This document shows, piece after piece, positions 11,180 to 52,450 of a stretch of 52,695 nt of DNA. The stretch spans positions 1 through 52,695 of the forward strand of contig CAMHHL010000008.1 of NCBI GenBank assembly GCA_946184925.1, given 5' to 3'. The DNA is from an uncultured Clostridia bacterium (GTDB taxonomy: Bacteria > Bacillota > Clostridia > Oscillospirales > Acutalibacteraceae). The notes below the pieces were generated by a model. The model made no database searches. It was not told the DNA's origin and saw nothing but the letters and a program-made list of their open reading frames with translations. Both the position numbers and the translations under genes were made by a program. Position 1 is the first letter of the stretch. Each line of letters starts with the position of its first letter.

Positions 11180-12910
11180 TTAATTTTTGGACTTTCCCTT
11201 GTATTCAAGACAGAGCATTGTCAAATCGTCGAACTGTTCGGCGTCCTTGACGAACCCGTCAACGGACTCGCGAACGTTTTGCAGAGTTTGCTTTGCGTCC
11301 GCCTCGGGATGATTATTGAGGGCTTCGAGCATTCTGTCATTGGCGAAGAGCTCCTGATTTGCGTCAGTCGCCTCGGGAACACCGTCGGTATACAGGAACA
11401 GTTTGGTTCCGGGCTTGAGCTCGAGATTATACTCCCAGTACTTTACGCCGCTCATTCCGCCGATTACAAAGCCGTGCTTGTCCCTGAAAAGCTCGTAGTT
11501 TCCGTCGGGGGATTTCAGAGCCGGATATTCGTGACCTGCGTTAGCCGCAGTGAGCTTGCCGGTGGAAATTTCGAGAATACCGAGCCAGACGGTAACAAAC
11601 ATATCAAGCTGGTTGTTTGAGCAGATGGAATTGTTTGTATCCGTCAGAATCTGAGCAGGCGACTTGCCCATCATCGCGTTGTTCTGGAGAATAATCTTTG
11701 ACGCCATCATGAACAGCGCAGCCGGGATTCCCTTTCCCGAAACATCAGCCATCACAACGCAGAGGTGGTCGTCATCAATTAGGAAATAATCGTAGAAGTC
11801 GCCGCCTACCTCCTTTGCCGGATCCATCTTAGCGTAAACATCAAATTCATCGCGCTCCGGGAACGCCGGATAGATATTCGGAAGCATACTCTCCTGAATC
11901 TTCGTAGCCATATCAAGCTCGACGCTTACGCGTTCCTTCTCCGCTGTAACTCGCGTCAGGTTCTCAACATAGTCTGAAAGCTCACGCTCCATATCAGCCA
12001 TAACAAGACTGAGGTTCTCAACCTCGTCGCCGGTGTGAATGTCGAGTTTGGCAAAATGATTTGAGCTGATGATCCCGGCGCGCTTGTCGCTGACATAATT
12101 CATTGCGGCGTCGGCAATTTGGTTGATTGGTTTGACTATCTTCTTTTTCATTCTGCGCGCGAATATATACGCAAGCAGAACAGTCGATATTCCGATTCCG
12201 ATGAAATAAAGCAGAGCGAAGGTTTTCATGCCGTTGAAAACATTTCCGATTGTAACGTCTGTCAGCACAAAGGCTACAATCTCACCCTTATCATTGGTTA
12301 TCGGAACGCCCGAAGTACACATCCAGCCGTACTTCTCGGTATCGCCGATATCATAGAGCTTGCCTTCTCCGTTCCAGTTGAGGAAACGGTCAATCTCTTT
12401 TTTCTCAACAGTTTCCCAGTCGCCGGGCATACACATGTATTCGGGATCGTCATCCGGGTCGGCAATATATACAAGAGATGAGGTTTCGGCGTCGTACATA
12501 CCGAGGTATACGTCATACACGTCGCTTTTCTCGAGAAAAACCTTCAAAACTTCGATTGAGGTTTTATACTCGGGAAGCTTCTGAATCTCAGCAAAACGCG
12601 AACGGTAGGCATCCGTACCTGTACCGGCACGCTCTTCCTCCGACTGGGAATGATACAGCTCAAGCGTTCTTTCAGCCATAGGCGCAACGTCAACAACTCT
12701 GGACATAGCGGAAGCGACATTTCCCGAAAGCTGGAACGATTCAGTAATATACTGTCCCGCCAGAGCGTATGTATAAAGACCCAGCCCGATGATGAAGGCG
12801 ACCAGTCCGAGAACTACGCAGCTGTTAAACGCGGAGTGAAACACTCTGGCTTCGATGGAATAGTGCTTCCTTTCAAGTTTGTTCATTTCTCTGATTGATT
12901 TTTTCGGCAT
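11180..12910 (-). CDS. Membrane sensor (extracellular Cache-like region + HAMP-like linker) with C-terminal SpoIIE/PP2C phosphatase
   Basis: EVGGDFYDYFLIDDDHLCVVMADVSGKGIPAALFMM; two TMs flanking ~200-aa extracellular region. Confidence 0.92.
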   Translation of the reverse strand: MPKKSIREMNKLERKHYSIEARVFHSAFNSCVVLGLVAFIIGLGLYTYALAGQYITESFQLSGNVASAMSRVVDVAPMAERTLELYHSQSEEERAGTGTDAYRSRFAEIQKLPEYKTSIEVLKVFLEKSDVYDVYLGMYDAETSSLVYIADPDDDPEYMCMPGDWETVEKKEIDRFLNWNGEGKLYDIGDTEKYGWMCTSGVPITNDKGEIVAFVLTDVTIGNVFNGMKTFALLYFIGIGISTVLLAYIFARRMKKKIVKPINQIADAAMNYVSDKRAGIISSNHFAKLDIHTGDEVENLSLVMADMERELSDYVENLTRVTAEKERVSVELDMATKIQESMLPNIYPAFPERDEFDVYAKMDPAKEVGGDFYDYFLIDDDHLCVVMADVSGKGIPAALFMMASKIILQNNAMMGKSPAQILTDTNNSICSNNQLDMFVTVWLGILEISTGKLTAANAGHEYPALKSPDGNYELFRDKHGFVIGGMSGVKYWEYNLELKPGTKLFLYTDGVPEATDANQELFANDRMLEALNNHPEADAKQTLQNVRESVDGFVKDAEQFDDLTMLCLEYKGKSKN

Positions 12911-23491: not shown

Positions 23492-24985
23492 CTAAGTGTT
23501 TTCCGAGGTTGCCGGTTCAGGCGACCTCTTTTTTCCGTTGTATTTTAGGCAGAGCATTGTAAGGTCGTCAAAGCGCTCTGCTTCGCCGACGAAATCCGAA
23601 ACGGAGTTCGCGACATTATTGATAATATCCTTGGGTGAAGCCGACGGGTTTATATTCAGCGCGGCAGTCATGCGCTCCGTTCCGAAGAGTTCTTCATTAT
23701 TATTGTGAGCTTCGGGAATTCCGTCGGTATATACGAACAGAGACTCGCCTTCGCGAAGTGTAAACTCATAGTCGGAAAACTTAACACCTGAAATTCCGCC
23801 GAGAACAAAGCCGTGCCTGTCCTTGAGAACCTCAAACTCACCGTCAATCTTGCGAACCGCAGGATATTCGTGACCTGCGTTCGCCGCGATCACCTTACCC
23901 GAATCAATCTCCAGAATTCCAAGCCAAACGGTGACAAACATATCGGCAACGTTATTTGAACAGATTCTCTCGTTGACGAAGCTGAGAATTTCAGAAGGAG
24001 TTCCACCCATCATAGCCCTGTCGCTGATGAGGATTTTCGACGCCATCATAAAAAGCGCGGCAGGAATTCCCTTTCCCGAGACGTCAGCTATAACCATAGC
24101 AAGGTGATTGTCGTCAATCAGGAAAAAGTCATAGAAATCTCCGCCAACCTCGCGCGCCGTGTGCATTGCGGCGTATATATCGAACTCGTCATTATCGGGA
24201 AAAGCCGGGAAAATTGTCGGAACCATGCCCTGCTGAATCTGCGTTGCAGTGTTGAGCTCGCTTTTGGCGCTTGCCGACGCACGGGATATTTCAGCCTGCT
24301 CTATTACCATTTTGTGACCGTGCTTTGCAATAAGCACGGATATCATCGAAATAATTCCAAACACGAGCAGTCTCGGCAAAAATCCGTGAACCATTACTCT
24401 GAACACTATCGTTGCAAAATCGGTGTCAATCGCGGTAACGGTTGAACGAAGATTGTCGTGAATAATGAGCAGCGAACCCTCCGCAGGATTCGGATAAAAA
24501 TTGAGGTCAATTACACCGTAGAATATTGTCGAAAACGACGCCAAAGCAAGCATGACAATCGAAATCAAGGCAATATTCAGCGTGAAGCCCTTGGAGAAAT
24601 ATCTGCTCGACAGGAGCACGGGCAGCACCATAATCAGGATTACGTTATGGTTAAGCACGCTGAAAAGCCGCGTGCACACCAGCAGGAACGCAATCACCAT
24701 AACATATTTTAACCAACGCTTTTTGCCGTTGAATATTTTGTACAGAATATATGTTACGATAAGCTCCGCAAGTCCCTGAATCGAGAGAATATTCATCCGC
24801 GTCTTGTCGATTGTAAAGATACCGAACAGATTGAGAACCCACGAAACAGCAAGCACAACAGCGCTCGCCAGCAGTACATAAGAAACCAAGTCGTTGGACT
24901 GGATTTCATTCTGCTCAAATATTTCTTTAGTATCATCTGAACCGTAAACCGAAAAGACAGAGCGGATTTTTTTAGCTACTGCCAT
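23492..24985 (-). CDS. Multi-TM SpoIIE/PP2C phosphatase (last gene of the NRPS operon)
   Basis: EVGGDFYDFFLIDDNHLAMVIADVSGKGIPAALFMM; hydrophobic N-terminal half; RBS ggggtga. Confidence 0.93.
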   Translation of the reverse strand: MAVAKKIRSVFSVYGSDDTKEIFEQNEIQSNDLVSYVLLASAVVLAVSWVLNLFGIFTIDKTRMNILSIQGLAELIVTYILYKIFNGKKRWLKYVMVIAFLLVCTRLFSVLNHNVILIMVLPVLLSSRYFSKGFTLNIALISIVMLALASFSTIFYGVIDLNFYPNPAEGSLLIIHDNLRSTVTAIDTDFATIVFRVMVHGFLPRLLVFGIISMISVLIAKHGHKMVIEQAEISRASASAKSELNTATQIQQGMVPTIFPAFPDNDEFDIYAAMHTAREVGGDFYDFFLIDDNHLAMVIADVSGKGIPAALFMMASKILISDRAMMGGTPSEILSFVNERICSNNVADMFVTVWLGILEIDSGKVIAANAGHEYPAVRKIDGEFEVLKDRHGFVLGGISGVKFSDYEFTLREGESLFVYTDGIPEAHNNNEELFGTERMTAALNINPSASPKDIINNVANSVSDFVGEAERFDDLTMLCLKYNGKKRSPEPATSENT

Positions 24986-24988
24986 AAC

Positions 24989-25399
24989 TCACCCCAGATG
25001 TTTTTTAATCTTAAGGATATTGCTGCCGTCCTTATACTCATAGTCGACCATATTCATCGACTTCTTGACAAGAAAGATTCCGAGACCGCCGATTTGTCTC
25101 TCCTCTGCGGAGAGCGTCGTGTCAGGATCGGCTGTTTCAAGCGGATTGAACGGCTTGCCGTTGTCGATAAATGTGATTATCACGGCAAGGGGGTCATCCT
25201 CAAGCTCGAAACGAACAGTAGCGTCGCCCTTGTTGGGGTTATACGCATATCTCGCTATGTTGCCGAAGAGTTCGTCAATCGCGATATCAATCTGCATCTG
25301 AGCTTTCATGGGGCAGCCGAGAGCTTCAAGCTCATCGTTGATAAAATCTGTAACTGTTTCTATATTTTCTATTGCAGCTTCAATAGTCAGTTCTTTCAT
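24989..25399 (-). CDS. RsbW/SpoIIAB-like HATPase (anti-sigma-type kinase)
   Basis: N-box DELFGNIARYAY; G1 FIDNGKPFNP; G2 GGLGIFLVKK. Confidence 0.92.
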   Translation of the reverse strand: MKELTIEAAIENIETVTDFINDELEALGCPMKAQMQIDIAIDELFGNIARYAYNPNKGDATVRFELEDDPLAVIITFIDNGKPFNPLETADPDTTLSAEERQIGGLGIFLVKKSMNMVDYEYKDGSNILKIKKHLG

Positions 25400-25407
25400 T
25401 GAATCAC

Positions 25408-27069
25408 CTAATCCTTTAAAAGCTTTCGCACAGCAATGACAGTCGCCGCTGTTGCCGCCGAAACAGCAAGCACATGGACAACCGCCTTTCGGACAAACGG
25501 AACATTGAAGTCAAGTCCCGAGGAAGAAGCATTAAGCATATGGCGCAGTATCGGCGAAAGATGCTTGCGGTGCACGCTGTGGACATCATCCACCATACGC
25601 AGCTTCATAGAAAGAATCATCGTTTTCCTATTCGAGCAGTCATATTCATCCCAGTTCAAATTCGGGAGCGACGGATTTCCGGTCTTGGCGAAATTAGCCC
25701 ACATACTCATAACGGCTGCCGAAAGATTTTTGTTGGCAGGTTTTCCGGTATAAATAGCCTCATTCGTGTTTCCGAAAACATAAGCAAGCTCGACCGCGTG
25801 ACAAGCTCCCCTGAACGGGATTGAGCTCGGCTCGGTCCAATAGTACATAAAGACCTTTCCGCCGTTTCTGCTGTGATACTCAGCCTGCTTGATGGCAGGG
25901 AGTCTGAACATAATCTCGTTATAAAATTCGGTTATCTTCCAGATGCTGTGCCCCTTGAGCCCCGACATAAAATGATGAACCCTGCGCCTGTCAATCTTAG
26001 TAAGGAGGCGAATGTCATTCTCATACTTCACCGGCATACTGAATCTGTACGGAACGATTCCGCCCAGTTCGCCTACCCAATAGTTAAGCTCGTTGGCATT
26101 TGTACCAATCAGCATATCAACATCGACGGTGTAGCCTTCTTCATACGGAGCATAGGGATCAAGCGGAATCAGCTTGCCGTCGCGCTGCGGGAAATTGTTA
26201 TCGAGGTTTAACTTCTTGTTCAGAGCGATTATTTCGTTGGTGCTGAGTTTCATCAAATCGTTGATGTGACGAACTCCTGTACCTTCAATCAGCTTTCTTG
26301 TATACTCGCGGCACTCAGCCTTTGATGAAGTGAGCGCGACGGAGCCGCTCTGCGCGATAACACGCCTGAACAGTCCTTTTGCCTCCGGGATAATCGGCAG
26401 AAGCGACACGCTGCCGCCGCCTGCCGACTCGCCGAAAATCGTTACGTTATCGGGATTTCCGCCGAAAGCTTGAATATTTTTCTTTATCCAGCGCAGAGCT
26501 TCAATCTGGTCGAGCAGACCGAGGTTGGGAGCGTCGGGATAGTCCTCGCCGCCGGGAATATAGCTCAAATCGACAAAGCCGAGAAGCCCGACACGATAAC
26601 CTACGGTAACAAGAATGATATCGGGATGCGCGCTGACAAAGTTGTGCCCGTTATACAGAGGGTCAGCGGTGCCGCCCCAACCGTAGGAACCGCCGTGAAA
26701 GAAAACCATGACGGTTTTGTCGGCGTCCGGACATGTCTCGTTTAGCCAAATGTTAAGATAAAGGCAATCCTCTCCCTGGGGATAATAAGAAGCCTTCTCG
26801 GACTCCCATTCTGTCTGAACAGGAGATTTACCGTTATAATACGCTTCAAAGACCTCATCGCAGTTATCCGGCGGAACCGGGCGCTTCCAGCGCAGGGAGC
26901 CTACCGGCTGTTTCGCAAAGGGAACGCCTCGAAAGGAAATGATATTATTCCTGCGCTTACCGACGAAAGTACCGTTGAGACATTTTGCGGAGAGCTCAGC
27001 CTCGTATTCGCCGGTAATTTTATTGTTGACGCCGTAGCTTTTTTGAATCTCTGTCTTTGATGTACTCAT
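25408..27069 (-). CDS. Type-B carboxylesterase / para-nitrobenzyl esterase family, hydrophobic C-terminal segment
   Basis: GESAGGGSVSLL nucleophile elbow, FHGGSYGWGG oxyanion region, CHAVELAYVFGN catalytic His region; ATGA overlap with NRPS. Confidence 0.93.
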   Translation of the reverse strand: MSTSKTEIQKSYGVNNKITGEYEAELSAKCLNGTFVGKRRNNIISFRGVPFAKQPVGSLRWKRPVPPDNCDEVFEAYYNGKSPVQTEWESEKASYYPQGEDCLYLNIWLNETCPDADKTVMVFFHGGSYGWGGTADPLYNGHNFVSAHPDIILVTVGYRVGLLGFVDLSYIPGGEDYPDAPNLGLLDQIEALRWIKKNIQAFGGNPDNVTIFGESAGGGSVSLLPIIPEAKGLFRRVIAQSGSVALTSSKAECREYTRKLIEGTGVRHINDLMKLSTNEIIALNKKLNLDNNFPQRDGKLIPLDPYAPYEEGYTVDVDMLIGTNANELNYWVGELGGIVPYRFSMPVKYENDIRLLTKIDRRRVHHFMSGLKGHSIWKITEFYNEIMFRLPAIKQAEYHSRNGGKVFMYYWTEPSSIPFRGACHAVELAYVFGNTNEAIYTGKPANKNLSAAVMSMWANFAKTGNPSLPNLNWDEYDCSNRKTMILSMKLRMVDDVHSVHRKHLSPILRHMLNASSSGLDFNVPFVRKAVVHVLAVSAATAATVIAVRKLLKD

Positions 27070-30053
27070 TTCTTTCTCCTGAAAATACCCTTTACCGTCT
27101 CGAAGAAGTTCTTCTTGTCGGTGAGCTTCTTTCTGAGCTCGCCGATTGTAACATCCTTCTGAGAGTTGTGAGTTACAAGAGACTGAGCGGTATTTACGAA
27201 GAGATCACGGAATTTCTCCATGCTTGAATCCTCATAGCGGCTTGCGGCATAGTCCATCATCAGGACGAGACCATCAGCGCCGTCGAGAATTTCCATATCA
27301 ATAATTGTCTGGGAAGCAGCCTGATTCTGCCTGATGTCGATTGTCTCAACACTGAGCTCCTCAAGTCCGCCCATATCACGGATATCCTGCTGATAGAGCA
27401 GATATGCGGTGTCGTCGTTGACAACCTCTCTGTCCTTCTCAACATAAGGATAACAGCTGTGCTCAATGCCCTTCTGAACCTGATTGTGAACATCGGCAAA
27501 AGCCTCGCGCAAGGTCATATCGTCTCTGAACCTGATACCGACAGGAAGGTCGCGGAAGAGAAGTCCTACCGACGACATGCTGAGCATATCCTCTCTGCCG
27601 TTATAAATCCAGGACAGCTTAATATCATTCTTATGGTTATATACAGCGATTGCAAGCGCAAGAGCGGTAATAAAGAACTCGTTACGGCTGATTCTGTACT
27701 GTTTTTCCATAGCCTTCATTTGGGGCTGTTCAATACCGATGGGCGCAAACACCTCGCCCATCTCATTCTCGCGAGACTCGTGGTCGGTTTTCGGATAGCT
27801 TGACCATTCGATTCCGTCGTAGGTTTCTTCGAAATACTTCTTGCTCTCCTCATAGAAGTCGCTGTGCTCAGCGTCCTCACGGTTTTGAAGCATAAGATAA
27901 TAGTAATCCGGGTCGGGGAGCATTCCCATATACAGCTTTCCGACGTTACCCATAAACAGCTTGAGCGATGTGCCGTCAAAGAGTGTGTGATGAATATCAA
28001 AGAAGATGTAGCCGTTCTTCTCTGTCTCGAACACACGACAGCGATAAAGGCTTCCGTCAATAATCTTAAACGGCTGAACAAGAGTATCCTTTATGCAGTC
28101 GAACTCGAATTCGGTCATCTTCTCAACATGTATATCACGGAGAGTTTCGGGAGAATACTTCTGAACGATATCGCCGTCATCATTGAATTTAAATGTAGTA
28201 AGAATCGCAGGATGATGCTTGATAGCGGTTTTCATTGCATCGGCGAGTTTTTCGAGATCAAAGGTTTCCTTATCAACCTTCATCATCGAGAAAAGATTAT
28301 ACATGGTGGACTTGGGAGTATAGAGCTGATAGTCAACCATATAAAGCTGCTCGGTTGTGAGCGGATGCTCGGACTTCATCGCGCGAGCATTCTTGATTTC
28401 GGGGGATTCACCGTCGTCATTTGCGTGAGCCTCTTCATAGAGCACTGCAATCTTGGCGGCAGTTCTGCCACGGAAAATCTCACCGGAATTGAGTCCGGGA
28501 AGCCCGCTTTCTACAATGAGCTGAATAGAGGTGAGCGAATCACCGCCGAGCTCATAGAAATCGTCGTTGATACCTACCTGTTCAAGCTTCAGAACCTTCT
28601 CCATTGCTAAGCAAAGCTTCTCCTCGGTCTCGTTGGTAGGAGCGGCGTACTCGGTTCTGAAATCCTTGGTGTCGGGCTCAGGCAGAGCCTTTCTGTCCAT
28701 TTTACCGTTGGGTTTCAGCGGAACCTTGTCAATCTTGATATAAAACGCCGGAATCATATAATACGGCAGACGCTTTGAGAGTTCTTCACGCATCCTGTCC
28801 GGATCAACATCAACATCGGCAGTATAGTAAGCGCAGAGATAGCTCTTGCCGTTGTTATCAAAGCCCTTTGCGGCAGCCCAGTCAATGCCGAGAACCTGCT
28901 TTACGGAGGCTTCAATCTCGGCAGGCTCAATACGGTTGCCGTTAATCTTTATCATATCGTTGGAGCGACCGAGGAGGAGATAATCTCCGTTCTCGTTCTT
29001 GCGCGCAAGGTCGCCGGTATGATAAATGCCGTCGGTGAACGCCTTCTCGGTTTCTTCGGGAAGGTTGATATATCCGCGGACGAAGGGATTCTCGAAGCAG
29101 AGTTCGCCTGTTTCGCCCTCATCGACCTCATTGCCGTCCTCATCAAGAAGGAGGATTCTGGTATCAATCTCCGGCTTACCTACCGGGCAGGTGTCATAAG
29201 CCTTATCAATCTTGAATACGCCGACAGCAAAACCGCTTTCAGACGCAGCGTAGATATTGATGAGGTCAAGATTCTTATTATAGATATTATTCGCAGGCTC
29301 ACTTCCGACGAAGAGCATTCTGAGGAAGGGGCCGGTCTGGTTGCCGAGCATACGTACATATGACGGCGTAAGGAATGTGATTGAAATACGCTTCTCAATA
29401 AAGAATTTCTTGAGAGCGAGCGGATTCTTGATTGTGGCATAGCCGACAACGAACATCTTACCGCCGCAGATACTGAGCATCTCAAGAATTACAATAACCG
29501 ACGCGACAAAGTTCATCGGAGCCAGAAGCGCAACTCTGTCCTTACCGTTGAACGGAATCTCTCCGTTAAGGCGGACAGATTCAATCGCCCTTGTGAGGTT
29601 GCCGTACTCATGAAGCACGCCCTTGGGGTTGCCTGTAGTACCTGAGGTGTAAATTGCATAAGCGGCGTCGTGCTCGTCAGCCTGCTCAAAGCCGGCAAGC
29701 GGCTCCGTCTGCATAACATCGTCCCAGTTTGCGCCGCAAATCTCAGCCTTGCAGCCGCAGTCCTTGCGAATAAACTCAATTCTCTCGGGGGCGTAGGTAT
29801 CCTCAACCAGCGCCCAAGCCGCTCCTGCCTTCCATACGCCAATCATAGCGATAATCGGCATAATGCCGCGCGGCAGGTTAATCAGCACAAAATCCTCTCT
29901 GCCGATTCCTTGATTTTTCAAATAAGCATATACGCGTCCGCTGAGGTCATCGAGCCTTGAATAAGTTATACCTTTGGTATGAGCCTCATCATAGAGCACG
30001 GTGGCGTTGGGCTTCTCATGCGTATACTGCTTAAGCATTTCCAATACTGTCAT
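27066..30053 (-). CDS. Single-module NRPS, order adenylation-thiolation-condensation (A-T-C)
   Basis: A: YTSGTTGNPKGV, YHTGDLARKNENGDYLLLGRSNDMIKINGNRIEPAEIE, NGKMDRKALP; T: YELGGDSLTSIQL; C: FDIHHTLFDGTSL (HHxxxDG); no TE motif seen. Confidence 0.93.
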   Translation of the reverse strand: MTVLEMLKQYTHEKPNATVLYDEAHTKGITYSRLDDLSGRVYAYLKNQGIGREDFVLINLPRGIMPIIAMIGVWKAGAAWALVEDTYAPERIEFIRKDCGCKAEICGANWDDVMQTEPLAGFEQADEHDAAYAIYTSGTTGNPKGVLHEYGNLTRAIESVRLNGEIPFNGKDRVALLAPMNFVASVIVILEMLSICGGKMFVVGYATIKNPLALKKFFIEKRISITFLTPSYVRMLGNQTGPFLRMLFVGSEPANNIYNKNLDLINIYAASESGFAVGVFKIDKAYDTCPVGKPEIDTRILLLDEDGNEVDEGETGELCFENPFVRGYINLPEETEKAFTDGIYHTGDLARKNENGDYLLLGRSNDMIKINGNRIEPAEIEASVKQVLGIDWAAAKGFDNNGKSYLCAYYTADVDVDPDRMREELSKRLPYYMIPAFYIKIDKVPLKPNGKMDRKALPEPDTKDFRTEYAAPTNETEEKLCLAMEKVLKLEQVGINDDFYELGGDSLTSIQLIVESGLPGLNSGEIFRGRTAAKIAVLYEEAHANDDGESPEIKNARAMKSEHPLTTEQLYMVDYQLYTPKSTMYNLFSMMKVDKETFDLEKLADAMKTAIKHHPAILTTFKFNDDGDIVQKYSPETLRDIHVEKMTEFEFDCIKDTLVQPFKIIDGSLYRCRVFETEKNGYIFFDIHHTLFDGTSLKLFMGNVGKLYMGMLPDPDYYYLMLQNREDAEHSDFYEESKKYFEETYDGIEWSSYPKTDHESRENEMGEVFAPIGIEQPQMKAMEKQYRISRNEFFITALALAIAVYNHKNDIKLSWIYNGREDMLSMSSVGLLFRDLPVGIRFRDDMTLREAFADVHNQVQKGIEHSCYPYVEKDREVVNDDTAYLLYQQDIRDMGGLEELSVETIDIRQNQAASQTIIDMEILDGADGLVLMMDYAASRYEDSSMEKFRDLFVNTAQSLVTHNSQKDVTIGELRKKLTDKKNFFETVKGIFRRKK

Positions 30054-30062
30054 GTTCGCTCC

Positions 30063-30359
30063 TTATTCTACTGTAAGAATGTCGGAAAAACCTGTAACTT
30101 CAAAGATGTCACGGACAGTCTCATTAACACCGATAAGCTTCATTGAACCCTGCTTGTTCATCGTCTTCTGGAGTGAAAGAAGTACTCTCAGACCTGCGGA
30201 AGAGATGTAATTGAGCTCAGAGAAATCGAGAACGAGTTCTGTTACTCCGTCGAGCTCCGCCTTTGTCTTCTGCTCAAATTCGGGAGCTGTCGCGGTGTCG
30301 ATTCTGCCCTCAACATTTACTGTGAGTTTTGTTGAGTCCTTGTGTGTTTTGATTGTCAT
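30063..30359 (-). CDS. STAS-domain anti-sigma factor antagonist
   Basis: ELVLDFSELNYISSAGLRVLLSL (phosphorylatable Ser context), DIFEVTGF. Confidence 0.93.
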   Translation of the reverse strand: MTIKTHKDSTKLTVNVEGRIDTATAPEFEQKTKAELDGVTELVLDFSELNYISSAGLRVLLSLQKTMNKQGSMKLIGVNETVRDIFEVTGFSDILTVE

Positions 30360-30390: not shown

Positions 30391-32160
30391 TTATAACTGA
30401 ATTGTAAGGTTATTGAGTTCCATGGTACTGAGATAACTGACCTTTTTCGCCATTCCGCAGACCATTCTGATTCCGATGTTGGAGGTCGGGTCGTCACTCT
30501 CATGGAGCTTTATCCATTCTGTAGGGTCAAACTGCTTGCAGTCGTCTCGGAAACGAATCGTCCAGCCGTCGGAAAGCTTCATTACACGAATGTCTATACT
30601 GTATTTTTTGCCGTCCTTAAAGCCGTATTCAACAATATTGTTGCTGAGTTCCTCGACAAACAAAGCAGTCAGAGTTGAAATCTTGTTGCCGGCATTATGT
30701 CTTAGGCAAAATTCGCTGACAGCCTCGGAAGCGGGAATAATATCGTTTTCTTCCGAAATGGTTGTTTCAAACAAATCCTCTTCAGGAACACCGAAGGGCT
30801 CCTTGAGGAAAAGAAAGTCTGAGAAACGGAACGGAAAACCCCGCTTTTGGATTGCCGCAAATACGATAATGCAAAGCAGCGTCGCAACCTCGGCAACTAT
30901 ATACGCAATCCATACAGCGTCGGCGTCCATAGCTCCCGAAAGTAAAAGCGCAGGGAGGACAAGGAACACAAAGCTCTGCAGGAAGCAGAAAATGTTTGAG
31001 ATCGTCATTCTTCTCATTCCCTGAGTATAGTTGACAAATACATTATTTAAGCCGTAGAGGACGATACTGAGCGCATAGAAACGCAGACCTCGGGAAGCAA
31101 GCTCGACCATCTGTTTTCCGTCAGCCGAGCCGAACACTCCGGCGATAAAGTCCGCGCAAACGAACACAATCACTGCGAGAATCAAGCCGACTACCAGGGC
31201 AGTTTTTACCGCGGTTTTCACGAGCGCTTCGGCAGCGCTTCTGTCCTGCTCGCCGAGTATCATCCCGGCAATCATCGCCGCCGTAAGCCCAACGCCAATC
31301 ATTGTTGACGAGGTGAAGTTATAAACAGTATTAAGTACTCCGAGAGCCGCGACAGCAGTTGCCGAAAGGACAGTTCCTGCCATAATATTGTTCAGAACGC
31401 CGTTGCGGAGCATTGCCGAAACTGAGCCCACCGCGGACGCAGAACCGATGGAAAGAATATCGCCGAGATCCCTGAGCTTCAGACCCTTGGGCGAAAATCT
31501 AAAGATGATATCCTTCTTTCTGAAATGAAGAAGCATAATCACGAGCGCAACGAAATAGCTGATTGAGGTAGCGAGCCCCATTCCGAGCATTCCGCCGTGG
31601 ATAACAAGAGCATTGAGCAAATCGCCGGCAACATCAAGAAGCGTCATAACAACAACAGCTACGATAACACGGTTGGGGTCGCCGTCGAGCCTCATTAGAG
31701 AATTAAACTCAAAGAGAAGCAAAACGGACGGGAACGCAAAAACCATTCCGAGCAGATAGTCTGACGCAAGCGGAAGAAGGTGAGCGGACTTTCCCCTTGC
31801 GCCGAGGAGCACGCAGATGTTACCTCTGAACAGGAGAATAACCGCCATCATAACAACAGCTATAATCGCCGTAATAACCATACACATCGAAAAAGCCCTT
31901 CTGGCTCTGTCGGCTTTTCCTGCGCCGAGATGCTGAGCACAAACAACCTGTGCGCCGGCGGCGAGAATACCGCTGAATGCGGTCGCCAGGTTAATAACGG
32001 GAGTGACAAGACCATACGCAGCCATGCTGTCTGTTCCGAGAAAACGACCGATAACTATTCCGTCGATGACTACGCCTATCATAGTCGCAACCGCTGCGGC
32101 GATAATACTTACTACCGATTTCTTGAAAAGCTTGCTGATAATCATGCCTTTACTTTTCAT
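30391..32160 (-). CDS. MATE-family transporter fused to C-terminal RsbW-like HATPase domain
   Basis: MATE core IDGIVIGRFLGTDSMAAYGLVTPVINLATAFSGILAAGAQVVCAQHLGAG; C-terminus LTALFVEELSNNIVEYGF...FRDDCKQFDP...SNIGIRMVCGM. Confidence 0.9.
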   Translation of the reverse strand: MKSKGMIISKLFKKSVVSIIAAAVATMIGVVIDGIVIGRFLGTDSMAAYGLVTPVINLATAFSGILAAGAQVVCAQHLGAGKADRARRAFSMCMVITAIIAVVMMAVILLFRGNICVLLGARGKSAHLLPLASDYLLGMVFAFPSVLLLFEFNSLMRLDGDPNRVIVAVVVMTLLDVAGDLLNALVIHGGMLGMGLATSISYFVALVIMLLHFRKKDIIFRFSPKGLKLRDLGDILSIGSASAVGSVSAMLRNGVLNNIMAGTVLSATAVAALGVLNTVYNFTSSTMIGVGLTAAMIAGMILGEQDRSAAEALVKTAVKTALVVGLILAVIVFVCADFIAGVFGSADGKQMVELASRGLRFYALSIVLYGLNNVFVNYTQGMRRMTISNIFCFLQSFVFLVLPALLLSGAMDADAVWIAYIVAEVATLLCIIVFAAIQKRGFPFRFSDFLFLKEPFGVPEEDLFETTISEENDIIPASEAVSEFCLRHNAGNKISTLTALFVEELSNNIVEYGFKDGKKYSIDIRVMKLSDGWTIRFRDDCKQFDPTEWIKLHESDDPTSNIGIRMVCGMAKKVSYLSTMELNNLTIQL

Positions 32161-39581: not shown

Positions 39582-41414
39582 TCAGCCCTTATAATAAATC
39601 GCGAGAACAGTCAGGTCATCCGACTGCGGAGCGGAGCCGGTGAACTTGAGAACATCCTTCTTGACTGCGGTGCACATTTCCTCCGAGTTTTTAAAATTAC
39701 CGCGCGAAACAGCCTTGAGAAGTCTGTCTTCGCCATAGAGCTCCTCAGCGGTGTTTTGCGCCTCGGTGACGCCGTCGGTATAGAGGAAAACAGCGTCTCC
39801 TTTGTCGAGCTTGAGCTCGTGCTTGCGATACTGCATACCCTCCATCGCGCCGAGCGAAAGATTAGGCTTGCAAACAGCGTAGGAACAATCGCCGTCGCTC
39901 TTGCGGATAATGGGATGGCAGTGACCTGCGTTCGAGAAGTCGATCTCGCCTGTGTCCGTGTTGAGAATACCAAGCCAGAGTGTGACGAACATATCCTCAT
40001 TGTTACCCTCGCAGAGTATGCTGTTCGCAATGTTCATAACCTCATTTACCTCTCTGCGCGACTGGGCAAGAGATTTGACAACAGCCTTTGCCTTCATCAT
40101 AAACAGCGCGGCAGGAATCCCCTTGTCGGAAACATCAGCCATTATAAAAGCGAGCTTGTTTTCGTCTATGAAGAAGAAATCGTAGAAATCTCCGCCGACC
40201 ATTTTTGCGGTTGTCATTGAGGCAAAGATGTCGATATCTGTTCTGTCGGGGAACGCTGGGAATTCATTCGGAAGCGCGGAAAGCTGAATTGAGCTTGCAA
40301 ACTTGAGTTCTCTGTCAAGGCGTGCAGCCTCGCGCGCGATATATTCCTTCAATGTGTCGACTGTTGAATTTATGTCGTCGGAAAGCTGTGAGAACTCTAT
40401 GTTGCCTCGGACATCTATGACGGTGTCAAGGTTTCCGGCGGTAATTTCGGCAAGCCCGTCGTTCACCTTGCGTATATTATCAACGATAAGCTTTCTGCTT
40501 AGATCATTTACTCGGAAGAACATCACAACAAGCAGCAAAAGAACAAGCACGCTGATGATGCTCAGAATGATATACCATCTTGAAAAGCTCTCTGACGTTG
40601 GAACAGCGCTGAAGAAATATATTTCCTCGGAAATGACGCACATCATATAATACTCTTCGCCGTTAATCGTTGCGGTAAACACCTTGTCGGGTTCTACCTC
40701 CGATAATGAGGCAACTCCGAAATCCTCAGTGGTTTTATAGTTTGAGTTGTGAGGTGCGCTGAGGATTTTTCCTTTGTTGTCACAAACAATGCAAAAGCCG
40801 CTCTCACCCACCAGCGTAAATTTTGTACTGTCGGTAACGAACATTACAAGAGATTGATAGTATGATTCAAAGCTGACGCCGACAACAACAAAATCGCCGT
40901 TTTCAAGCGGAATTCCGGCATAGCTATACAAATCGTCTCCGAGAAGCTTATCTTTGAAGAAATCTGTTTTCACATAATCCTTCTCCTTATTCAGAAGCTT
41001 GCCGAACACGGATGTGTTTTCATTACCGAGAATATTTAAGCCGATGCATTTTTTCTCGCTCGAGCAAACAACCTTGCCGTTTGAATCGACAACATCGACA
41101 ACAGCGGTGGAAAGATTTTTAGTCGCTTCCTTCAGGGACGAAACTGTAATTTGGTCGGCGGTATTGATATCTTCGGCAATAATCTCAGCTCTTATTCGCA
41201 TGACAGAATCAATATTATAGCTGATTCCGTCGGTGATGCGATTGATTTGCTTTTTGAGCATTGACTCGTTCGCTCGTCTGACAAAAAATGTCAGCGAAAC
41301 GATAACTATGAAAAATGCAACAAGAAAAATTATTATTGTAGTTTTGAGAAGGCGAAGCCGAAAGACCGTAGAAATTTTCCTTAGCTTTTTCCCTTGTTTT
41401 AATGAAGCGCTCAT
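39582..41414 (-). CDS. Extracellular Cache-type sensor + HAMP + SpoIIE/PP2C phosphatase
   Basis: MVGGDFYDFFFIDENKLAFIMADVSDKGIPAALFMMKAK; ~250-aa extracellular domain between two TMs. Confidence 0.92.
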   Translation of the reverse strand: MSASLKQGKKLRKISTVFRLRLLKTTIIIFLVAFFIVIVSLTFFVRRANESMLKKQINRITDGISYNIDSVMRIRAEIIAEDINTADQITVSSLKEATKNLSTAVVDVVDSNGKVVCSSEKKCIGLNILGNENTSVFGKLLNKEKDYVKTDFFKDKLLGDDLYSYAGIPLENGDFVVVGVSFESYYQSLVMFVTDSTKFTLVGESGFCIVCDNKGKILSAPHNSNYKTTEDFGVASLSEVEPDKVFTATINGEEYYMMCVISEEIYFFSAVPTSESFSRWYIILSIISVLVLLLLVVMFFRVNDLSRKLIVDNIRKVNDGLAEITAGNLDTVIDVRGNIEFSQLSDDINSTVDTLKEYIAREAARLDRELKFASSIQLSALPNEFPAFPDRTDIDIFASMTTAKMVGGDFYDFFFIDENKLAFIMADVSDKGIPAALFMMKAKAVVKSLAQSRREVNEVMNIANSILCEGNNEDMFVTLWLGILNTDTGEIDFSNAGHCHPIIRKSDGDCSYAVCKPNLSLGAMEGMQYRKHELKLDKGDAVFLYTDGVTEAQNTAEELYGEDRLLKAVSRGNFKNSEEMCTAVKKDVLKFTGSAPQSDDLTVLAIYYKG

Positions 41415-47810: not shown

Positions 47811-48947
47811 TTATAGTGTTTTAAACAGATATTTAATAGTCTGCTCGTTGGGAATTACAACACCTCTGAGCAATTTGTCCATCAAAATCGGAGCCAGCTC
47901 ACGCGCCTTTGGCGAGCCGCCGCCGACAGTCAATATTACATTGAAAGCAATCAGCAAGCCGAGTTTCTGAAAATATTCCTTGAGCTGTTCGGAATCTGTG
48001 ATACCGGTGTACTTCATAAAGAACATATTGCCGACCTTGATACACAAATCAGCAGGCATACCGGTGCTGCGCTCGATACTTCCCTTTTCCGCACCTGCCG
48101 GAGCGCTGACCATATCGCGAAAGGTCGCGACAAGGTCGCATATCGGCGGTCCCATAGAAATCCCGGGCATATCAATCAGCACAAGCTCGTCGTTATGAAT
48201 CATAATATTACCCGGGTGAAAATCGCCGTGGACTACCGTGTTAACCTTGGGGATTTCGTCCGTAATACTGTGCATTATCGCGATTTCCTCATCGGAGCAC
48301 CACTGTGTAAGATTATCTATATGGCGATGATACACATCCTGCACACGCTCTATGCTGCCGTCGGGCATCTCCGTTGAATGAAGTGTTTTCGCAAGATCAA
48401 CATATTGGTCGGTATATTCGACGAGCTTTTCCGGATTGTTCTTCATAGCGTGACCTAATGTATCGGAGTTGAGCAATTCAAATACAACGCCGTAGCTATC
48501 CCCTACCTTGACCATATCATAAGCTATAACAGACGGAATGCCGCTCATAAACGCCGAACGCGCGTACTCACGCTCGCGGTCAATTCCTTCAATGCCGATT
48601 TTTGACTTATAGACCTTAACAATAGTTTCGTTATCGAGACGATAAACGGCACCGTTGCCGCCTTCTCCGATAAGCTCGCAGCCGTCCACTGAGATTTCAC
48701 GCAAGGCTTTTTTGACATTCAGGATTGTTGTAAAGCCTGTGACATCAAAAATCTCGTAAACCTCGGGGCTGACGTTGAAGATTGTTACATCATCAACCTG
48801 TTTTCTGAGCTTCATCAGCACGCGAAGTCCTGCACTCGAAATATACTGAAGCCCGGAAGCGTCAATCTCGGTAGGCTTTGCCGCTAAAATCTCTTCTTCA
48901 AACTGAGGAGCGTTGGTTGAGTCAATTTTTCCTTTTATTTGATACAT
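47811..48947 (-). CDS. STAS domain fused to APH/choline-kinase-like phosphotransferase
   Basis: N-terminus TEIDASGLQYISSAGLRVLMKL; C-terminus LIGEGGNGAVYRLDNETIVKVYK, VHGDFHPGNIMIHNDELVLIDMPG. Confidence 0.92.
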   Translation of the reverse strand: MYQIKGKIDSTNAPQFEEEILAAKPTEIDASGLQYISSAGLRVLMKLRKQVDDVTIFNVSPEVYEIFDVTGFTTILNVKKALREISVDGCELIGEGGNGAVYRLDNETIVKVYKSKIGIEGIDREREYARSAFMSGIPSVIAYDMVKVGDSYGVVFELLNSDTLGHAMKNNPEKLVEYTDQYVDLAKTLHSTEMPDGSIERVQDVYHRHIDNLTQWCSDEEIAIMHSITDEIPKVNTVVHGDFHPGNIMIHNDELVLIDMPGISMGPPICDLVATFRDMVSAPAGAEKGSIERSTGMPADLCIKVGNMFFMKYTGITDSEQLKEYFQKLGLLIAFNVILTVGGGSPKARELAPILMDKLLRGVVIPNEQTIKYLFKTL

Positions 48948-50080: not shown

Positions 50081-50491
50081 TTAATTCAGATTTTTCTTTA
50101 TGGTGAGAATATTCTGTCCATCCTTATATTCGTAATTGACTTGATCCATAGATTCCTTAACCATAAAGATACCCAAGCCGCCGATTTTGCGTTGCTTTGC
50201 GGAGAGAGTTGTGTCGGGATCCGTCCGTTCAAGCGGATTGTACTGTCTGCCGCCGTCGATGAAAGTTATCTCGACGGAGAGCGGTTCATCATGCATGGAA
50301 ATCTGAACAACAGCGTTTCCGGTTTCCGGACTGTAGGCATAGTTTGCGATATTGACGAACAACTCCTCAACAGCTACGTCAATCGCTATCTGCGTTAACA
50401 TAGGACAATCTGCACTTTCGAGTTCCCCGTCGATGAAAGCCTGAACCTCGGGCAGATTATTTCTGTCAGCTTCAATTACAAGTTCCTTCAT
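50081..50491 (-). CDS. RsbW/SpoIIAB-like HATPase (paralogue of 24989-25399)
   Basis: VEELFVNIANYAY; FIDGGRQYNPLERTDPDTTLSAKQRKIGGLGIFMVKES. Confidence 0.92.
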   Translation of the reverse strand: MKELVIEADRNNLPEVQAFIDGELESADCPMLTQIAIDVAVEELFVNIANYAYSPETGNAVVQISMHDEPLSVEITFIDGGRQYNPLERTDPDTTLSAKQRKIGGLGIFMVKESMDQVNYEYKDGQNILTIKKNLN

Positions 50492-50493
50492 TG

Positions 50494-52026
50494 TTATTCC
50501 TCCGCCGCAGGACCTTTGTATTTCAAGCCGAGCATTGTCAAATCGTCAAACTGCGGAGCTTCTTTTACAAAAGCGTCAACAGCAACGCGGACGCACCTCA
50601 GCACTTCCTTCTGCGATGAGCCCTCAGGAACAGCGTTGAGAGCTTCGAGAGTGCGGTCTGTACCGAACAGCTGATTTTCAGCATCGGTAGCTTCGGCAAC
50701 ACCGTCGGTATAGACAAATATGCTGTCACCCTTTTTGAGCGTGACTTCGGTATTTCTGTACTTGGATATCGGCATCGCACCTATAGCCAGACCGTGCACG
50801 TCCTTCAAAATCTCGTATTTTCCGTTTGTGTTAATCATCGGGTATTCGTGGCCTGCACTTGCGCTTGTGAGCTTTCCGGTGCTGATTTCGAGTATTCCGA
50901 GCCACACGGTGACAAACATATTGGCGTCGTTGTTCTCATAAACCAGCTTATTTACTCTCTCTAGTATCTCTGCCGGTGTGCCGCCGATGATCGCGTGGTC
51001 GTTGATTAGAATCTTCGAGGACATCATGAACAGCGCCGCCGGGACGCCCTTTCCCGAAACATCCGCTATAACCATTCCGAGGTGGTCGTCGTCAATCATA
51101 AAGAAATCGTAGAAATCTCCGCCGACCTCTTTTGCAGGATCCATGGAAGCGTAAATATCAAACTCACTGCGATTCGGAAAAGGCGGAAAGATTGAAGGGA
51201 GCATACTCGTCTGTATTTCCGTAGCCATATTGAGCTCAGTCTGGGTTGCGGCAAGTTTTCTGCTCCTGTCATTGAATATGACGCAGTACATAATAACCAG
51301 CGACATAAGCACAATTCCGTACTGGCTGCCTTCACCGAAGGTCGCGCCGAGCAAGATGTATTCAATAATGGGCAGGAAAATGAACGTTAGTATTGCAGCT
51401 TTCTGGTTTATGGAGATTCGGACCATAATAACCTTTATCGTCGTAAGCACAGCGGTTACGGCAAGAAAAACTTGCTCTATCATGAAAATTTCCGTATCCT
51501 GATACACACCATCGGAATTAACCGAGAATGTGACAGGAAAGAAAATATTGGATAACAAAATCAGCGTTTGGATTGCTAACACTATGGGGATGATTATGTC
51601 AGCAATTTTTGTATACTTTCCATCAAAGCCGAGTACTGCTCTTACATAAAGGTAAAAAACAAGTATCATCGCAAGGTCAATAAGCTTGCTCACAAAGCAA
51701 AGTATAAAAAATATTGTTCTGCTCTGAGGCACGCCACCTGTATAGCGCACAACCTCATTGACAGCAAAGCAAGCGCTGACCATAATGATTAGTATTCTGA
51801 ATGATCTTGACCCGTCGCCATCTTGGTTCATACAGCCGTAAAACAGCGCAGCGCAGATAAGCGAGCCCAATGAGTCTACACCGGCGTCAAATAAGTAAGG
51901 CTGCAGCCTTTGCTCCATGAAAAACGGTGTGCTGAGCAACATTATAAAAGCGGTTGATGCAATGGTAAAAATCAATCCGTATAATCTGAAATCTTTTAGT
52001 TTCTTAACCATTTTGTTTTCTCCCAT
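50494..52026 (-). CDS. Multi-TM SpoIIE/PP2C phosphatase
   Basis: KEVGGDFYDFFMIDDDHLGMVIADVSGKGVPAALFMMSSKIL; N-terminal membrane domain with several TMs. Confidence 0.93.
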   Translation of the reverse strand: MGENKMVKKLKDFRLYGLIFTIASTAFIMLLSTPFFMEQRLQPYLFDAGVDSLGSLICAALFYGCMNQDGDGSRSFRILIIMVSACFAVNEVVRYTGGVPQSRTIFFILCFVSKLIDLAMILVFYLYVRAVLGFDGKYTKIADIIIPIVLAIQTLILLSNIFFPVTFSVNSDGVYQDTEIFMIEQVFLAVTAVLTTIKVIMVRISINQKAAILTFIFLPIIEYILLGATFGEGSQYGIVLMSLVIMYCVIFNDRSRKLAATQTELNMATEIQTSMLPSIFPPFPNRSEFDIYASMDPAKEVGGDFYDFFMIDDDHLGMVIADVSGKGVPAALFMMSSKILINDHAIIGGTPAEILERVNKLVYENNDANMFVTVWLGILEISTGKLTSASAGHEYPMINTNGKYEILKDVHGLAIGAMPISKYRNTEVTLKKGDSIFVYTDGVAEATDAENQLFGTDRTLEALNAVPEGSSQKEVLRCVRVAVDAFVKEAPQFDDLTMLGLKYKGPAAEE

Positions 52027-52111
52027 ATAACAGCACCCGATATCATAACCGATATGCGCATATTATGCGACATTCACGGGCATTATCGGGTCTGTTTCAT
52101 ATTAATTTGTC

Positions 52112-52450
52112 TTATTCGATGGTAAACATCAGGCTAAAGCCGGTAAGGTCAAAAACGTCGCGCACAGCCTGCGAAAGATTGCGAACGACCATGTCACCTC
52201 TGCCATCTATTCCCTGCACAGCACCGAGCAGGACACGAAGTCCGGCGCTGGAGATGTAATCGAGCTTTGCGAGGTCAAAAATCATCCTCTCGGCTTTGTC
52301 AATCACGTTCTTGACCTCAGCATCAAGGTCAGGGGATGTCAGCGTATCAAGCCTTCCGTTAAGCAGAAATGTGTATTCCGCTCCGTTCTTTTTAACAGAA
52401 ATATTCAGACCGGAAGCAGTGTTTGAATTATTTTTTCTTCTCAGAGCCAT
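52112..52450 (-). CDS. STAS-domain anti-sigma factor antagonist
   Basis: RMIFDLAKLDYISSAGLRVLLGAVQGI; DVFDLTGF. Confidence 0.92.
   Translation of the reverse strand: MALRRKNNSNTASGLNISVKKNGAEYTFLLNGRLDTLTSPDLDAEVKNVIDKAERMIFDLAKLDYISSAGLRVLLGAVQGIDGRGDMVVRNLSQAVRDVFDLTGFSLMFTIE

Follow-up and report, generated by a model that had tools for sequence, protein, structure and literature searches.

A MATE-family transporter fused to a SpoIIAB/RsbW-type domain as a candidate output of partner switching in Clostridia

The window, i.e., the whole stretch of DNA analyzed (52,695 bp), is one entire contig of the genome of an uncultured Clostridia bacterium (Acutalibacteraceae). It contains a tight run of six genes on the same strand, separated by gaps of 31, 9, -4, 8, and 3 bp. 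The first gene encodes a MATE-HATPase protein and is followed by genes encoding a STAS protein, an NRPS-like protein, a carboxylesterase, an RsbW-like kinase, and a SpoIIE-type phosphatase. The features of this operon, in window coordinates, are as follows.

30826..32160, minus strand: MATE core of the first protein, residues 1-445 (Pfam MatE in two stretches; NCBIfam matE)
30394..30810, minus strand: SpoIIAB/RsbW-type HATPase domain of the same protein, residues 451-589 (Pfam HATPase_c_2, AF2, Foldseek, motif table)
30063..30359, minus strand: STAS protein, 98 aa (Pfam STAS, E = 1.8e-18; NCBIfam ant_ant_sig over cutoff)
27066..30053, minus strand: NRPS-like protein, 995 aa (Pfam AMP-binding, PP-binding, and Condensation over cutoff)
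25408..27069, minus strand: carboxylesterase, 553 aa (Pfam COesterase, E = 1.5e-94)
24989..25399, minus strand: stand-alone RsbW-like kinase, 136 aa (Pfam HATPase_c_2, E = 7.9e-20; motif table)
23492..24985, minus strand: SpoIIE-type phosphatase, 497 aa (Pfam SpoIIE, E = 7.4e-45, residues 291-482)

The first ORF (589 aa, positions 32160-30391 of the minus strand) is open without a break. According to the Pfam analysis, its MatE core (PF01554) covers residues 19-417 with high significance (E = 2.7e-36; 125.1 bits against a cutoff of 24.9). The match to NCBIfam TIGR00797 (matE) spans 2-396 of 396 (E = 3e-40) and its score of 138.3 bits lies under the curated cutoff of 147.4, which is a naming threshold for the matE subfamily and corresponds to no structural feature. 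Twelve long helices were counted in a full-length AF2 model, which was built from four sequences with low confidence (mean pLDDT 49) and was used for the helix count only. As for the C-terminal part, HATPase_c_2 was matched at residues 476-587 (E = 1.4e-8; 35.3 bits against a cutoff of 27.4). Its N-box keeps E504 and N508. The G1 box keeps D539, with the Gly replaced by Cys (D539-x-C541), and in the G2 box (N561-I-G563) the first Gly of G-x-G is Asn, with G563 kept; owing to C541 and N561, the transporter's domain lacks an intact set of N, G1, and G2 boxes. The preliminary description of this DNA had read the ORF as a MATE core followed by an N-box and G1-like and G2-like boxes, with a STAS ORF immediately downstream. 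The motifs and both Pfam families bear this out, and the STAS ORF indeed begins 31 bp further on the same strand, preceded by a Shine-Dalgarno-like AAAGGAG.

An AF2 model of residues 451-589 had a pLDDT of 85.9 and a pTM of 0.80; the underlying alignment combined three homologues with both RsbW-like proteins encoded in the window, and the RsbW rows may steer the model. The top Foldseek match of the modelled domain in the PDB was SpoIIAB (1tid, TM 0.74), followed by mycobacterial UsfX and then B. subtilis RsbW. A PDB search with the single HATPase sequence gave no credible match; a profile of 18 transporter-borne domains, which requires no model, matched RsbW (6m36, E = 3.9e-6) and SpoIIAB (E about 4e-4). 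The model, the Foldseek match, and the family profile agree with the GHKL fold that had been expected for the C-terminal domain. These comparisons confirm the 589-aa ORF as encoding a predicted MATE transporter fused to a SpoIIAB/RsbW-type domain.

Further fused proteins were collected in surveys of the phylum (399 genomes) and of the order (295 genomes), and the fusions were confirmed by reading the loci, including those of families outside the order. About 70 fused examples, spread over several families of the phylum, were examined. A match to the whole fused protein was present in 55 of 59 related genomes, many of these matches being full-length fusions. A chance ORF or an assembly artefact is ruled out by the full-length fused homologues (20-77% identity) of many other genomes. 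The fusion is considered real because of these homologues, the purifying selection described below, and the confident SpoIIAB-like model.

Trees of the MATE cores and of the HATPase domains were constructed and read without an inferred root. The fused proteins lay on one side of the MATE-core tree, except for the split copy L026, and the transporter-borne domains grouped together in the HATPase-domain tree with weak support (72). One old fusion event is the simplest account, the lineage being compatible with a single origin. L026, found in a relative, is an apparently broken MATE-HATPase gene split into two frames; the genome of the window itself also contains an apparently broken copy with an internal TAA (L029, G000:C88:4368-5126).

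In the 98-aa STAS protein, the phospho-acceptor Ser sits in YISSAGLR and is kept in all 40 of the aligned STAS domains. The NRPS-like protein contains adenylation, carrier, and condensation domains. All six of the checked nucleotide-site residues are intact in the 136-aa RsbW-like protein, and the SpoIIE-type phosphatase is likely membrane-bound, judging from its hydrophobic N-terminal half. The preliminary description had seen the STAS gene and had overlooked both this intact kinase (24989-25399) and the phosphatase (23492-24985). Since the STAS protein, the RsbW-like kinase, and the SpoIIE-type phosphatase are encoded in one operon, the switch is complete without the MATE-borne domain, and since the kinase is motif-complete, the STAS protein could be switched without this domain. 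Holding all three usual parts, the operon probably functions as a partner switch. A search for sigma factors found none on the contig of the window, all 14 Sigma70_r2 matches of the genome falling on other contigs; only one STAS and RsbW pair of this genome has a sigma factor next to it, and that pair is located on contig C61 in a spoIIA-like order. Promoter-like consensus sites were found upstream of the first operon gene, but the same sites occur throughout the AT-rich stretch and therefore carry little weight.

The contig contains other genes of these types. A second STAS, SpoIIE-type phosphatase, and RsbW set is located at positions 50081-52450 with no transporter or sigma factor beside it. 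Two further SpoIIE-type phosphatases, one with a HAMP domain, are encoded at 39582-41414 and 11180-12910, which brings their total on the 52.7-kb contig to four. In addition, STAS is fused to an APH-type phosphotransferase domain at positions 47811-48947 of the window and in two other loci (L014:2528-3706 and L051:9812-11404), and the L051 protein additionally carries an RsbW-type HATPase domain.

The surroundings of the fused genes were compared with those of 19 unfused MATE genes drawn from the same survey, switch-gene neighbours being called with custom profiles. Of 52 fused loci, 37 had a STAS, RsbW, or SpoIIE gene on the same strand at most four genes away, versus 1 of 19 ordinary MATE loci, some of the counted loci stopping at contig edges; the Fisher p-value of 9e-7 overstates the evidence and is a guide only, because the loci are related by descent. 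NRPS domains were found near fused genes in 24 of 52 loci versus 0 of 19 ordinary ones. Twenty further loci were picked from other genomes by the C-terminal profile. All 20 contained fusions, with switch genes in 13 and an NRPS gene in 1, so that the link with the switch is general and the link with NRPS is not. Several fused copies have no switch gene nearby (e.g., L017-L021, L052-L054, and L117-L119), and their partner would therefore have to act in trans.

NRPS terminal reductase domains can release peptide aldehydes. Two NRPSs encoded beside MATE-HATPase genes (L023:3-6701 and L033:8858-14794) consist of two modules with a C-terminal NAD_binding_4 reductase domain and in this respect resemble peptide-aldehyde synthetases; such neighbours bear on the possible cargo without proving it. 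A STAS-condensation domain fusion of approximately 530 aa adjoins the MATE-HATPase gene in L093, L094 (5252-6841), and L096, as confirmed by Pfam in L094 and indicated by a custom profile in the other two.

Catalytic potential was scored at six positions, namely, Glu and Asn of the N-box, Asp and Gly of G1, and two Gly of G2. Not one of 54 transporter-borne domains had all six intact (0 of 54), nor had any of the 20 further ones, versus 25 of 27 RsbW-type domains from the same loci. The N-box Asn is a Mg-binding residue (PMC9137472). Of 71 transporter-borne domains, 39 keep it and 32 lack it; the family tree implies about seven changes of this residue, at least six of them forced by well-supported branches. 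The lid motif GGLG is gone from nearly all fused copies. The lid Arg, which in SpoIIAB contacts the gamma-phosphate (excerpt of PMC10120452), was found in 8 of 54 fused versus 21 of 27 RsbW-type domains, the lid alignment being the least certain of the motif counts. Throughout the 10-member clade of the window, E504, N508, and D539 are kept, so that ATP binding is possible in this clade; the G1 Gly is Cys there. No clear pattern, in which motif-degenerate copies would be paired with an RsbW gene and motif-rich ones would not, was seen by eye among the loci.

The fused HATPase domain is under purifying selection. Most close pairs, among them pairs and clades without the N-box Asn, give dN/dS values of about 0.07-0.18 for this domain; the exceptions (0.24 and 0.33) are both more diverged pairs. 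A vestigial domain is ruled out by these low values, and their combination with lost motifs indicates that selection keeps the domain for a role that is not, or not solely, catalytic.

Partner switches are known above all for the control of sigma factors. Like the Bacillus SpoIIAA-SpoIIAB-SpoIIE and RsbV-RsbW-RsbU systems, the operon encodes a STAS protein with an acceptor Ser, an RsbW-type kinase, and a SpoIIE-type phosphatase, and the transporter domain has the SpoIIAB fold. Unlike them, it lies on a contig with no detected sigma factor, and its transporter carries a further copy of the kinase domain, with degenerate motifs. This domain was not filed as an anti-sigma kinase because it failed the motif test and has no linked sigma factor. 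NorM, MepA, and DinF-type MATE exporters have the MatE core in common with the fused protein, which differs from them in having about 130 additional residues that form a cytosolic HATPase domain, and in the switch-gene neighbourhood.

The SLC26/SulP transporters carry STAS domains. In MlaFEDB, the STAS subunit MlaB takes part in transport (excerpt of PMC7367683). Both resemble the arrangement proposed here in that STAS domains participate in a transport system; in both, STAS is inside the transporter, whereas here the kinase-like partner is on the transporter and STAS is separate. Neither transporter family is related to MATE. Kinases of the GHKL type also pair with STAS proteins in SypA-SypE of Vibrio fischeri, CapK-CapS, and VapK-VapS (excerpts of PMC10120452 and PMC13373217). 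The targets of CapS and VapS lie outside sigma pathways (PMC13373217, same excerpt), and SypA is a downstream component with an unknown target (PMC10120452, same excerpt); these excerpts, unlike the present proposal, describe no membrane transporter as a target. SspH of Streptomyces, a HATPase-only regulator of antibiotic genes, is likewise an RsbW-like HATPase protein linked to secondary metabolism, but it is stand-alone, has no transporter, and needs the N-box Asn and the G1 Asp (PMC9137472). No description of a MATE-HATPase fusion was found in the open-access papers that were searched, although domain databases may list the architecture, and a transporter carrying a kinase-like STAS partner is not described in the open-access papers found.

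Taken with a probability of roughly one half, our main reading is that the transporter domain is a mostly non-catalytic site of STAS docking that puts export, probably that of the NRPS product, under the control of the RsbW/SpoIIE pair. Here we infer STAS binding, its dependence on phosphorylation, the direction of gating, and the exported product. The C-terminal cytosolic domain of the MATE exporter would derive from an anti-sigma kinase, its main function now being to dock STAS. The RsbW-like kinase of the operon would phosphorylate the STAS protein and the SpoIIE-type phosphatase would take the phosphate off; unphosphorylated STAS would then move from the kinase to the C-terminal domain of the transporter and, once docked, alter export. 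The cargo would most likely be the small-molecule product of the operon's NRPS-like protein and esterase. By analogy with the SpoIIAB-SpoIIAA pair, the role that most economically fits a SpoIIAB-like domain which is conserved but non-catalytic is STAS binding, and if the transporter domain binds STAS, export would be the output.

The preliminary description had left open whether the transporter is gated by STAS or itself phosphorylates STAS. Its link between transporter and partner switching is upheld by the gene neighbourhood, the operon structure, and the fold; of its two options, the sequence comparisons favour gating and disfavour this protein as a STAS kinase. An active kinase, with the MATE part sensing substrate or transport state and the fused domain phosphorylating STAS, appears improbable, although the clade of the window keeps the catalytic Glu and Asn and the adenine-binding Asp, and although L022, L023, and L050 combine a fused transporter and a STAS gene with no RsbW gene found nearby (at L022 and L050 the search was limited by contig ends). 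Against it stand the RsbW-like protein of the same operon with all checked motifs intact, the fact that no examined fused copy has all six residues together, the repeated changes of the N-box Asn, the Cys in place of the G1 Gly in the window's clade, and the loss of the lid motif and, mostly, of the lid Arg.

The domain could also serve for dimerisation or nucleotide sensing and tune the transporter with no part played by STAS, the adjacent switch controlling something else. SpoIIAB/RsbW-type GHKL domains do dimerise (excerpt of PMC10120452) and some fused copies have no switch genes nearby; the strong, repeated linkage to STAS, RsbW, and SpoIIE, whose components persist while gene order varies, makes this unlikely. 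It is hardly probable, too, that the output is ordinary transcription through an unlinked sigma factor or regulator, with the transporter merely co-transcribed and its domain of minor function. At least 13 Sigma70_r2 genes elsewhere in the genome would allow it, but the contig has no detected sigma factor, the HATPase domain is kept by purifying selection, and the linkage recurs though operon contents differ.

Docking of STAS on the transporter remains our preferred reading. Extended to the family, it becomes more tentative and falls somewhat short of even odds: a widespread MATE subfamily may be a direct, non-transcriptional output of partner switching, in which the secretion of a peptide-type metabolite, made locally, would be gated by phosphatase signalling. 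Several sigma-free STAS systems, such as SypA (excerpt of PMC10120452), have no known target; here the genome itself names a likely one, namely, a transporter that carries a kinase-like docking domain and belongs to the same operon. Should this hold, phosphatase signalling would be linked directly to secretion in gut and rumen Clostridia, and a GHKL kinase domain would have been repurposed as a receptor, which is rare. It would also give a handle on when these Clostridia release NRPS products. The arrangement suggests that the cell may turn export on and off by a switch known mainly from the control of gene expression.
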